A stretch of 64,000 nt of DNA, taken from the NCBI RefSeq assembly GCF_002752635.1, contig NZ_AYTW01000008.1:1-64000 (forward strand), given 5' to 3'. Under the pieces are notes generated by a model that saw only the letters and a program-made list of their open reading frames with translations, ran no database searches and was not told the origin of the DNA. Source of the stretch: Mesotoga sp. Brook.08.105.5.1 (lineage in GTDB: Bacteria; Thermotogota; Thermotogae; Petrotogales; Kosmotogaceae). Positions 36,476 through 61,690 of the stretch are shown piece after piece. The stretch's first letter is position 1, and each line of letters begins with the position of its first letter. Position numbers and translations under genes: made by a program.

Positions 36476-36775
36476 GACGCAAGGCGCCGAAGATCATCGG
36501 CGGACGCAAGGCCGGTAAGTTCATCCCGGGACGCAGGGCTGACAAAGATCATGCCAGGACGCAATGCCCGCTTCGCGGGAAAGAGCCGCTTGGACAAGAA
36601 ACGCTGACTGCTCTACGCTGAGAAGATCATTCCAGGAAGTAATGCCCGGAGAACCACCCGGGGAAGTCAGGCTTGTTTGAAACATCAGAAGCAAGGCGCC
36701 GAAGATCATCGGCGGACGCAAGGCCGGTAACTTCATCCCGGGACGCAAGGCCCGCTTCGCGGGGATGAAAAACCA
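36476..36775 (+). repeat. Variable-stem hairpin array 1
   Basis: Constant spacers GACGCAAGGC/GACGCAATGC alternate with different self-complementary stems: CGCCGA/TCGGCG, CCGGTAAGTTCATCCCGG, CCCGC/GCGGG, CCGGA/CCCGG. The two halves of the array repeat each other. It leads into the four-helix-bundle gene at 36858. Confidence 0.8.
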
Positions 36776-36824
36776 CCAATAACAAAGTCATTGAGAGCAG
36801 TTGAAGGCCAAAACGTGAAAATGC

Positions 36825-36857
36825 TATATTTTCCTCAGCATATGTTGAGGAGGTTAG
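36825..36857 (+). promoter_or_regulatory. Conserved leader of four-helix-bundle copy 6
   Basis: TATATT (36825-36830) is followed by an inverted repeat TCCTCA/TGAGGA (36832-36837 and 36846-36851) whose right arm is part of the ribosome site GAGGAGG. The same arrangement precedes copies 7, 8 and 9. If TATATT is the -10 box, the repeat straddles the transcription start (operator); if transcription starts earlier, it would hide the ribosome site. Confidence 0.55.
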
Positions 36858-37217
36858 ATGATGGACATTGAGAATCTTCAAATCTGGAAGCTTGGAGTGA
36901 CATTAGCAAAAGACATTTATCTTCTGACTGAAAAGTTTCCCAAAAGCGAACTTTACGGCCTGACTGATCAGATTAGGCGAGCCGCCGTCTCGATTCCCTC
37001 AAATATTGCCGAAGGCAAGGGACGATCCACAGCAAAAGACTTCGTTCATTTTCTCAATAATGGAAGAGGTTCTTTATATGAACTCGCGACTCAGCTCTAT
37101 ATTGCGTGTGAGATAGGATACGTCAGAGAGTCGGACTTCTCTTCTCTACAAAAAAGAATAGAGGATCTTTCACATAAGATCGTTGCAATGACGAAGTACC
37201 TTAGGAGCAAGAAGTGA
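36858..37217 (+). CDS. Four-helix-bundle protein (S23/IVP family), copy 6
   Basis: A 119-aa protein: DIENLQIWKLGVTLAKDIYLL, GLTDQIRRAAVSIPSNIAEGKGRS (residues ~35-58), HFLNNGRGSLYELATQLYIA. Copies 6, 7 and 8 are close relatives in tandem on the same strand, each preceded by hairpin-array sequence and the same TATATT...GAGGAGG leader. They differ mainly in the middle and C-terminal helices, so they are old enough duplicates to have diverged while keeping the core. Confidence 0.92.
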   Translation: MMDIENLQIWKLGVTLAKDIYLLTEKFPKSELYGLTDQIRRAAVSIPSNIAEGKGRSTAKDFVHFLNNGRGSLYELATQLYIACEIGYVRESDFSSLQKRIEDLSHKIVAMTKYLRSKK

Positions 37218-37234
37218 TGACCTCATAGAACATT

Positions 37235-37412
37235 GGACGCAAGGCCGGCAGAGATCGTGCCCGGACGCAAGGCACTGAGGAACATCAGTGGACGCAAGGC
37301 CGGTGAAGATACTTCTCAGAAGTGAGGCCCGGAAAAGCATCCGGGGAAGTGAGGCTCGCTGCCGCGAGGAAGTGATGCTGGCGCTTACGCGCCAGGAAGC
37401 TGAACTTCAAAA
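37235..37412 (+). repeat. Variable-stem hairpin array 2
   Basis: Units with spacers GGACGCAAGGC and GGAAGTGAGGC/GGAAGTGATGC. Stems include CACTGA/TCAGTG, CCCGGA/TCCGGG, CTCGC/GCGAG and CTGGCGC/GCGCCAG. The spacer type changes from the GACGC to the GAAGTGA form within the array. Confidence 0.8.
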
Positions 37413-37457
37413 GAAAATGACTGCGCGACAGTACTTGAATGGTGAATTTTCAGATGA

Positions 37458-37493
37458 TATATTATCCTCAGTTCATTTTGAGGAGGATAGATC
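37458..37493 (+). promoter_or_regulatory. Conserved leader of four-helix-bundle copy 7
   Basis: TATATT at 37458-37463, then TCCTCA (37465-37470) paired with TGAGGA (37479-37484), which is part of the ribosome site. Confidence 0.55.
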
Positions 37494-37850
37494 ATGGAGA
37501 TCGAAAGGCTTAATATCTGGAATCTCGGTGTTGAGCTTGCAAAGGATGTTTATATTCTTACAGAGAAGTTTCCTAAGAAAGAGGTCTATAGTCTAACCGA
37601 CCAAATAAGAAGAGCTGCGGTTTCTGTACCCTCTAATATCGCAGGAGGGAAAGGTCGTTCATCTGCAAAGGACTTCATTAACTTCCTGAGTGTTGCCAGA
37701 GGGTCACTCTATGAATTAATAACCCAGCTCTATATTGCGAGGGAGATTGGATACCTGACTCAAGAAGATTTCTCAACTCTTCAAAAGAGAATCGAGGATC
37801 TTTCGCATAAGATAGTTGCTATGACGAAGTACCTTAGGAACAAGAAGTGA
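37494..37850 (+). CDS. Four-helix-bundle protein (S23/IVP family), copy 7
   Basis: A 118-aa protein: EIERLNIWNLGVELAKDVYIL, SLTDQIRRAAVSVPSNIAGGKGRS (residues ~35-58; the usual AEG reads AGG), NFLSVARGSLYELITQLYIA. The C-terminal RIEDLSHKIVAMTKYLR is almost identical to that of copy 6, while the rest differs more, which may reflect gene conversion. Confidence 0.92.
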   Translation: MEIERLNIWNLGVELAKDVYILTEKFPKKEVYSLTDQIRRAAVSVPSNIAGGKGRSSAKDFINFLSVARGSLYELITQLYIAREIGYLTQEDFSTLQKRIEDLSHKIVAMTKYLRNKK

Positions 37851-38036
37851 GGCCGACTCCGTCGGGAAGCTCTTTCTGGTTCACCGTCAACGGTTCTCCG
37901 TTCTCCGACAAGAAGATATTTCAGTTGAAAGACGCAATGCGCCGAAGATCATCGGCGGACGCAAGGCCGGGAAGTTCATCCCGGGACGCAGGGCTGGCGA
38001 AGATCATGCCAGGACGTATGGCCCGCTTCGCGGGGA
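37851..38036 (+). repeat. Variable-stem hairpin array 3
   Basis: Stems CCGAC/GTCGG, CGCCGA/TCGGCG, CCGGGAAGTTCATCCCGG, CTGGCGAAGATCATGCCAG and CCCGC/GCGGG between spacers GACGCAATGC, GACGCAAGGC and GACGCAGGGC. Interrupted by a TTCACCGTCAACGGTTCTCCG repeat at about 37880. Confidence 0.8.
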
Positions 38037-38096
38037 TGAAGAATCATCAATTACAGAATGCAAATAAGCCTCTTGAAGACCTAAGACTACAGATGC

Positions 38097-38129
38097 TATA
38101 TTATCCTCAGCTTATTACGAGGAGGATAG
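38097..38129 (+). promoter_or_regulatory. Conserved leader of four-helix-bundle copy 8
   Basis: TATATT at 38097-38102, then TCCTCA (38104-38109) opposite CGAGGA (38118-38123), which is part of the ribosome site. Confidence 0.55.
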
Positions 38130-38504
38130 ATGATGGACATTGAGAATCTTCAAATTTGGAAACTTGGTGTAAAGCTTGCAAAAGACGTTTATCTTCTAAC
38201 TGAGAGATTTCCGAAAAGAGAAATCTATGGCCTGACAGATCAGATTAGACGAGCTGCTGTCTCGATTCCCTCAAATATTGCTGAAGGCAAAGGACGATCA
38301 ACGGCGAAGGATTTTGTTCATTTCTTGAACACTGCGCGAGGTTCACTGTATGAACTGAAAACTCAGCTTTATATCGCACGAGAGATTGAGTATCTAACAG
38401 AAGAAGACTTCTCTTCTTTCCACAAACAAATCGAGAATCTATCCCATAAGATTGTTTCTATGATCAAGTTTCTGAAAGCGAAGAGTGATGGAGTGAAAAG
38501 ATGA
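38130..38504 (+). CDS. Four-helix-bundle protein (S23/IVP family), copy 8
   Basis: A 124-aa protein almost identical to copy 6 over the first half: DIENLQIWKLGVKLAKDVYLL, GLTDQIRRAAVSIPSNIAEGKGRS, HFLNTARGSLYELKTQLYIA. Two ATG codons (38130, 38133) follow GAGGAGG. It is the third of the tandem group. Confidence 0.92.
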   Translation: MMDIENLQIWKLGVKLAKDVYLLTERFPKREIYGLTDQIRRAAVSIPSNIAEGKGRSTAKDFVHFLNTARGSLYELKTQLYIAREIEYLTEEDFSSFHKQIENLSHKIVSMIKFLKAKSDGVKR

Positions 38505-38930
38505 CGCAAGGCTGGCTAAGATCATGCCAGGACGCAAGGCCCGCTTCGCGGGGAAAGAGCCACGTCTAGGAACGAGTTATGAAATTCGGGTTACTAGGAG
38601 CGGGTCATCAGAACCGGGTTTTGAAGAGCGAGATCCCGTATAGGAGCACTACGGGATGACAGTCCCTTCACAGAGATCTTATCACTCCGACCTGGCCGAC
38701 AAGTCCGTCAAATTCTGGACTGCTCCGACAAAAGCGAGAAGAGCTGTCCTTGGAAGAGACGCGAAAAATGGGACAGACGCTAAGATCCCGTCAGTCCCAA
38801 TTTTCGCTCTCGCTTCTTGTGAGCGTAGCGAATGTCTCTACCGTGTTCTTTCTCGAATGGTCTTATCGGAGAACGGGTCCTCGCTCTTGGACGGCCAACT
38901 GAGGACTGCTATTACAGCGCACAGCGGATT
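38505..38930. repeat. Composite repeat region 4
   Basis: A short hairpin-array stretch (to about 38562) is followed by a TATCACTCCGACCTGGCCGA segment (about 38690-38740), the inverted repeat GCGAAAAATGGGACAGAC...TTTTCGC (about 38760-38811), and CAGCGG-type words. No gene is supported. Confidence 0.65.
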
Positions 38931-60689: not shown

Positions 60690-61570
60690 ATTAAAGCATG
60701 CTAGTACATCTTGACATTACGCGAGAACAATGCCGGCGAAGAACATGCCGGGACGCAAGGCTGGCGAGAATCACGCCAGGTCGCAATGCCCGCTTCGCGG
60801 GGAAAGAGCCGCTGAAGACTGGACGCTGGGTAGAGCATGGACCCGCTGGCAAAGATCAAAGAGCCGCTTGTAGGGGCGAACGGCTGTTCGCCCTCCTAAT
60901 GAACTGATAACTTGGACGAAGAGGTTTTCAGATTATTAAGGTATCGGTGAAGACATGGAGCAACTCAGATGGTTATGCAGTGGCATGTTCTTTCATCAGA
61001 AAATTCGTTGATCTCTCTGCGTGTGTGCGACTTGGACAACGGTCAACCGTCAACGGTCCACCGTCCTCCGAGAAGAGCATATTTTGTTGAAAGGCGCAAT
61101 GCGCCGAGGAGCATCTGGGGACGCATGGCTGGCTTCGGCGGGAAGTGATGCCACCTTCGGTGGGACGCATTGCACTGTGGAGCATCAGTGGACGCAATGC
61201 CGGCTAAGAACATGCCGGGACGCAAGGCTGGCGAAGATCACGCCAGGTCGCAATGCCCAGAGAAGCATCTGGGGACGCAAGGCCCGCTTCGCGGGGAAGG
61301 AAAACTAGCCAGTCACCTTCGGTGGCCAGTTCCGGCTGCGCCGGCCAAACGTAGACAATTGAGAAAGAGAACATCGAGAGGTTCGCTGCGCTCACGAGAG
61401 AAGAGAGAGAGCCAGTCACTGGTGAAATGAGACGCAATGCCGGCGAAGACAGTGCCGGGACGCAAGGCTGCCTTCGGCAGGAAGTGATGCTGGCGCTTTC
61501 GCGCCAGGAAGCTGAAGAACATAAGAAAATGAACACAACGAGAATACTTGAAGCGAGGATTTCCAGATGA
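60690..61570 (+). repeat. Variable-stem hairpin arrays 12 and 13
   Basis: 60722-60890: units CCGGCG/TGCCGG, CTGGCG/CGCCAG, CCCGC/GCGGG, then a GCTGGACGCTGGGTAGAGCA segment and the GGGCGAACGGC palindrome (60874-60893). 60897-61035 copies 55383-55520. 61094-61515: a second array with CCACC/GGTGG, CACTG/CAGTG, CCGGCT/TGCCGG, CTGGCG/CGCCAG, CCCAGA/TCTGGG, two GCCAGT units (61308-61346) and a final CTGGCGC/GCGCCAG. Confidence 0.83.
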
Positions 61571-61690
61571 TATATTATCCTCAGTTTATTTTGAAGAGGA
61601 TACTTGATGGAGATCGAAAGGCTTAATATCTGGAAGCTTGGTGTTGGGCTTGCAAAGGATGTCATATTCTCACAGAGAGATTTCCTAAGA
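61571..61690 (+). pseudogene. Four-helix-bundle gene remnant, copy 9
   Basis: The TATATT...TCCTCA leader (61571-61606) and the first ~80 bases of the coding region (ATG 61607, IERLNIWKLGVGLAKD) closely match copy 7. A one-base deletion (GATGTCATATT against GATGTTTATATT) breaks the frame, and similarity ends at about 61690, where a hepT-like frame on the other strand begins. It shows that the leader, array and gene travelled together. Confidence 0.75.

Follow-up and report, generated by a model that had tools for sequence, protein, structure and literature searches.

PF05635 genes embedded in hairpin arrays in Mesotoga: probable units of a four-helix-bundle gene and its flanking repeats

The closest described counterparts of the genes analysed here are the ORF-bearing intervening sequences of 23S rRNA (Leptospira, Coxiella; S23p), in which the gene for a PF05635 protein lies within foldable repeats. 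In Coxiella, tandem heptamers stand before the ORF, and the intervening sequence has been called a selfish element (PMC4990558). The Mesotoga units share the protein family and the placement of the gene within foldable repeats with these intervening sequences, but are intergenic, lie outside rRNA and have their own promoter-like sequence and Shine-Dalgarno sequence, while their arms are direct arrays of small hairpins on both sides, with hundreds of related linkers genome-wide. The stem-around-ORF topology of the intervening sequences is that of the heptamer arms of the wider PF05635 family described below. REP/BIME repeats and their RAYT proteins offer a second likeness, the gene being flanked by lineage-specific palindromic repeats, gene-free repeats being in large excess and differing subclades pairing with differing repeat types. 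Unlike RAYT, however, the protein encoded here does not belong to the HUH/Y1 enzymes, lacks any known catalytic motif and gives no PF01797 match, and the repeats differ from REP/BIME in being 20-28-nt tandem hairpins with covarying stems. REPs have been counted in Mesotoga prima, the passages in question making no link to a protein (PMC12306157). A third system, the diversity-generating retroelement, includes the homologous protein Avd (bAvd), a four-helix bundle, basic and pentameric, that acts with RNA and has a role in RNA-templated retrohoming (PMC10053308); in contrast, the bAvd model gives 15.6-23.4 bits here against a cut-off of 40, and there is no adjacent reverse transcriptase or TR/VR. 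Integron cassette arrays, finally, share array-bounded genes, a single array orientation over 25 kb and blocks re-ordered between species, but no integron integrase is found here, and the hairpin arrays occur across the whole genome in either orientation. The PF05635 family is very common in bacteria and has no known function; the pairing with flanking repeats offers it a testable substrate. The same pairing connects dispersed intergenic repeats with the old puzzle of the rRNA intervening sequences, and PF05635 may be the partner protein of a repeat type without a known mover.

The window, that is, the whole stretch analysed, comprises the first 64,000 nt of a 68-kb contig (C8) of a 3.0-Mb genome in 61 contigs (G000); start codons of ORFs were set by rule. 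In a profile search, three intact ORFs of the window match PF05635 (23S_rRNA_IVP) with E values of 1e-38 to 1e-41 and scores of 130-139 bits against a gathering score of 33.8, covering model positions 1-105 of 106. The nearest solved structure by sequence match is 2GSC (E 1.9e-27), which supports a four-helix-bundle fold; 2GSC is a homopentamer, and the solved relatives are ring-shaped pentamers of four-helix bundles (PMC4990558). The proteins of the clade that contains the three genes are basic, with a median pI of 9.3.

All features of the three units lie on the + strand and follow one order, in which an array is followed by a leader of about 95 nt, the gene, and a next array that starts at the stop codon or a few bases from it. 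The array 5' of gene 1 has a first part at 36476..36582, with A-type linkers (GACGCAAGG) and the terminal hairpin CCCGCTTCGCGGG, and a second part at 36620..36766, with B-type and then A-type linkers. The leader (36767..36857) contains the promoter-like sequence TTGAAG (36801), 18 nt and TATATT (36825), followed by the hairpin CCTCAGCATATGTTGAGG at 36833-36850, which overlaps the Shine-Dalgarno sequence, and gene 1 (36858..37217; E 1.6e-38) encodes 119 aa. Between genes 1 and 2 the array (37210..37399) starts at the gene 1 stop codon and leads into the leader of gene 2 (37400..37493), which is conserved in other genomes and has TTGAAT (37435), 17 nt and TATATT (37458) and a hairpin at 37466-37483 that adjoins the Shine-Dalgarno sequence. 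Gene 2 (37494..37850; 118 aa) has 96% identity to array-flanked genes of genomes G001 and G009 (contig C8), and its end, ...AAG AAG TGA GGC, falls within a B-type linker, so that the downstream array starts at the stop codon; read directly, this array start is AGAAGTGAGGCCGACTCCGTCGG (37844..37872). The array 5' of gene 3 (37930..38036) is 92% identical to array 1 and precedes a leader (38037..38129) with TTGAAG (38073), 18 nt and TATATT (38097) and a hairpin CCTC...GAGG (38105-38125) adjoining the Shine-Dalgarno sequence; gene 3 (38130..38504; E 9.1e-41) encodes 124 aa and its stop codon is overlapped by a further array (38502..38552). Every leader thus has TTGAAN-17/18-TATATT upstream of a hairpin beside the Shine-Dalgarno sequence, and the predicted transcript would start just 5' of that hairpin, CCTCA...TGAGG, next to or over the Shine-Dalgarno sequence. 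A remnant at 61430..61690 (+) consists of an array, a leader and the start (ATG at 61607; ~85 nt) of one more PF05635 gene. Three successive array-leader-gene units and a remnant directly behind another array had been claimed in an earlier note on this DNA; both claims are borne out, the first by the three PF05635 ORFs and the excess of linkers over shuffles, the second by homology to array, leader and gene start at 61472-61690, with the array ending near 61500.

The last hairpin 5' of the leader is specific to the type of unit. It is CTGGCGCTTNCGCGCCAG in the unit of gene 2 and in the related copies at 61.5 kb, in G001 and on G009:C8, and with one change also on G009:C10, whereas for genes 1 and 3 and the remnant on G009:C7 it is CCCGCTTCGCGGG. 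The leader and the array edge therefore travel with the gene. The genes are surrounded by sugar-biosynthesis and defence genes. Gene 2 reads SNIAGG where nearly all family members have SNIAEG, a near-invariant Glu having become Gly, and its orthologues keep the Glu. Five other PF05635 genes lie at 9.2-23.4 kb of the window, interspersed with dTDP-sugar and replication/phage-like genes, some of them with short inverted arms (L001, L017) rather than hairpin arrays.

Each array unit consists of an 11-nt linker and a hairpin of 5-6 bp whose loop is TTC or about GAAGATCAT, the period being 22, 23, 27 or 28 nt. Linker A is GGACGCAAGGC with near variants, and linker B is GGAAGTGATGC with variants. 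Allowing at most one mismatch, GGACGCAAGGC has 37 matches in the window against 0.64 expected from shuffles, and all window matches of linker A are on the + strand at 36.5-61.5 kb. The hairpins are real and their stems covary: pairing at five stem positions reaches 94% over 161 distinct units, compared with 57% when arms are shuffled between units, and among 18 gapless units there are 23 stem cells with changes on both sides, where shuffles give 6.9 and 0 of 500 shuffles reach as high a value. The folding energy of most arrays is no lower than that of shuffles, one array having a z of -2.3. Exact A linkers number 90 across many contigs of G000. A CRISPR array was considered and rejected, as the variable parts are covarying palindromes and the same variants recur in many arrays. 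No Rfam family reaches its gathering score within the window, and a search for the two exact linkers in 84,980 genomes gave, outside the genus, only scattered matches, mostly single pairs, with B-type linker counts at background level. On G001:C1, + linkers predominate below ~1.3 Mb and - linkers above it, except at 1.80-1.92 Mb, which suggests a bias relative to the direction of replication. Most linkers of the unrelated array types of G000 and of L112/L127 contain a GNRA-type tetranucleotide (GCAA, GTGA, GCGA, GAAA, GTAA) flanked by short potential pairs.

G000 has 20 PF05635 matches, 17 of them intact, with little overlap with A linkers overall, and the linkage of gene and array is real for one subfamily in the genomes tested. 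Within the subfamily of the window genes, delimited at >=74% identity, all six intact genes (three in G000, one in G001 and two in G009) have linkers within 150 bp on both sides, compared with one of 336 other genes from 383 kb of array-rich DNA; the genes of G001 and G009:C8 are orthologous, so that at most five of these cases are independent. The three truncated copies (G000 61.5 kb, G001 1.222 Mb and G009:C7) all follow an array. Of the remaining PF05635 genes in G000, a single one comes within ~300 bp of an array, which lies beside the neighbouring gene, and the others are not array-flanked. The gene-array unit recurs at differing loci in three species, namely at 36-38 kb and 61.5 kb of G000:C8, at 1.222 and 1.228 Mb of G001, and on contigs C8, C10 and C7 of G009. 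Exact A and B linkers number 206 in G000, 202 in G009, 120 in G001, 63 in G002 and 60 in G004, with 22 in G008, 14 in G005, 2 in G006 and none in G003 and G007; the subfamily is confined to the genomes with the top three of these ten counts, a 1 in 120 outcome by rank with relatedness uncorrected. The statistical linkage of genes and arrays that the earlier note had put forward is thereby found, for the subfamily only, and its idea that genes and arrays form one unit holds insofar as the association recurs far above chance. Strict dependence, however, is rejected, because most PF05635 genes here lack arrays and because G002, a genome 99% complete, has 24 + 39 = 63 exact linkers and no PF05635 gene; the expectation that genomes without the gene also lack the arrays fails there, and arrays far outnumber genes.

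Genes and flanking repeats are probably one unit, and the most serious rival to this reading is that the arrays are independent, dispersed extragenic hairpin repeats of the REP/BIME kind, in which IVP genes sit as in safe landing or recombination sites, the tandem copies having arisen by recombination between direct repeats. Tandem duplication does arise readily from direct repeats, arrays occupy dozens of gene-free sites, G002 carries them in the absence of PF05635, 43 of the 336 other genes have an array adjoining them on one side or both, and the conserved blocks of the island stand in changed order between species. At the locus of the solo unit on G009:C10, moreover, G000, G001 and G004 have an array but no gene between the same two genes, so that the gain and loss of arrays is independent of the gene; in G000, the array at this orthologous site is a different one and runs in the opposite orientation. 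No clean target-site duplication, precise empty site or clean insertion end was found at the loci compared, and the GAAG and GATGA duplications that can be read by eye at array/gene borders were discounted, since array linkers repeat anyway. The independent-repeat account is nonetheless unlikely, as two-sided flanking is almost exclusive to the clade (6/6 against 1/336), leader and last upstream hairpin move together with the gene, and relatives in other genera lie in arrays of unrelated sequence.

These relatives, the nearest in two other genera, together with a second type within the genus, add three further array families whose sequences are unrelated. In G012, two genes (56% identity) are accompanied by hairpins of the form AACNNN-loop-NNNGTT joined by CGNAAC with a period of 21, and the linker GTTCGNAACAAC has 75 exact copies there against 0-5 in twelve other genomes; one of the two genes has exact linkers on both sides and the other clearly only downstream, the sandwiching chance of a random 354-bp interval in that genome being 1e-4. 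(A/G)CTGGCC linkers lie on both sides of the genes at G010:C92 (58%) and G009:C7:76656 (50%), and a GAAGC linker lies upstream of that at G010:C143 (52%), both patterns having been picked after inspection. Around more distant relatives in those genomes, a hairpin excess was not found. A tree of 72 family members groups all ten array-flanked proteins in a single clade (support 99/90), and the array-flanked label requires one change against 9.5 in shuffles. Passive insertion into one repeat family hardly accounts for a single clade whose members pair with four unrelated array families. The possibility that the array supplies a premature stop to the gene was also considered and is ruled out, a 118-aa relative in G012 ending at the same place without that array.

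Many other PF05635 genes, from cyanobacteria, Bacteroidota and viral contigs, have repeat arms of another kind, namely complementary heptamer repeats on the two sides. An inverted flank score of at least 12 is reached by 25 of 58 non-redundant members and, in the same DNA, by 3 of 152 control genes (p 2e-13; period 7), and complementary arms were found at 7 of 12 PF05635 genes against 5 of 57 control genes in an extension sample; the wider sample is weighted to cyanobacterial plasmids and viral contigs. An Anabaena locus (L186), for example, has (GGTGACA)n before the gene and (TGTCACC)n after it, and a viral contig (L160) has GGAAGAA before and TTCTTCC after. At the window genes, the inverted flank score is not above shuffles, and the arms on the two sides repeat self-complementary units in direct orientation; the stem-around-ORF topology is therefore absent there. 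Viral and plasmid loci with high generic hairpin-run scores (L160, L166) have no shared linkers and were not counted as arrays. A search of phage records found nothing, and in the literature no description of heptamer or hairpin repeats next to PF05635 was found.

The reading that we favour, with a probability of about 0.55, is that a repeat-armed IVP element is present here in three tandem copies, one per gene; its oligomeric protein would bind the repeats and favour the upkeep or copying of the element, and solo arrays would be non-autonomous. Such an element would consist of a gene for a basic four-helix-bundle PF05635 protein, with its own promoter and 5' hairpin, between foldable repeat arrays, which in the Kosmotogaceae clade are tandem hairpin arrays and in many other bacteria complementary tandem heptamers that would close a stem around the ORF. 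The target of the oligomeric protein may be the folded repeats in the transcript of its own gene, or the same repeats as single-stranded DNA; this binding might in turn favour maintenance or copying of the unit, and gene-free arrays would be its non-autonomous derivatives, a relation that, like any selfish character, we infer from the arrangement of genes and repeats. The unit reading draws its strength from the two-sided flanking (6/6 against 1/336), the dispersed loci, the unrelated arrays at relatives, the single clade, the heptamer arms and the basic pI, and is weakened by the case of G002, the surplus of arrays over genes, the direct arms, the lack of clean ends and the folding energies of most arrays, which are no lower than those of shuffles.

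A regulatory role that involves no mobility is a less probable alternative than independent repeats. On this account the repeats would belong to the IVP mRNA and regulate or stabilise it; the protein would bind the 5' hairpin or the 3' array and so control its own translation or decay, and arrays elsewhere would serve other genes likewise. A downstream array that begins at the stop codon would indeed fall in the 3' UTR, the leader hairpin lies over or next to the Shine-Dalgarno sequence right after the promoter-like sequence, and leader and first codons precede a different gene in two places. Arrays also lie 5' of the promoter and beside genes of either orientation, however, and regulation does not require dispersal to many loci and other insertion contexts, which makes this account improbable. 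At the two places just mentioned (G001:C1:1222045-1222177 and G009:C7:91073-91147), array, leader and the first ~11 IVP codons are fused to a downstream gene that starts MSIGVKSIKSCKPYQL, with the same fusion point in both genomes, a type I leader in one and a type II leader in the other; judging from the sequences, promoter capture or recombination between unit types may have produced these fusions.

Movement of the arrays by a RAYT-type transposase, integron integrase or reverse transcriptase encoded at another place is very improbable: array-bounded blocks do differ in order from species to species with retained orientation, and some genomes have Y1 transposases or reverse transcriptases, but a Y1_Tnp match (RAYT, PF01797) is absent from array-bearing G001 and G002, reverse transcriptase (PF00078) is absent from array-bearing G004 and G005, and no integron integrase (IntI, TIGR02249) scores over the cut-off in the genome, so that such movers are largely refuted, unless a low-scoring enzyme has been missed. 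The reverse transcriptase matches of G000 lie on contigs other than that of the window genes. The island at 36.5-62 kb of the window also carries toxin-antitoxin genes and ATPase/defence-like genes, and all its arrays lie on the + strand; in comparison with G001:C1:1220000-1273000 and G009:C8 its conserved blocks are re-ordered with their orientation kept, as if array-bounded blocks had been shuffled without inversion between species.

Extended beyond Mesotoga, the repeat-armed element becomes a more tentative proposal, somewhat doubtful as yet, in which PF05635 genes throughout bacteria would be the coding part of repeat-armed selfish elements. The protein of each lineage would bind its own type of arm and spread both the unit and gene-free arrays, and the 23S rRNA intervening sequence would be a special case that landed in rRNA. 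On cyanobacterial plasmids (L186, L193, L191), PF05635 genes are found within a type III-B cas operon or with cas6 on one side and cas4 on the other, in agreement with the reported presence of the family in cas loci (PMC3936711), and heptamer repeats surround some of the PF05635 genes at these loci.
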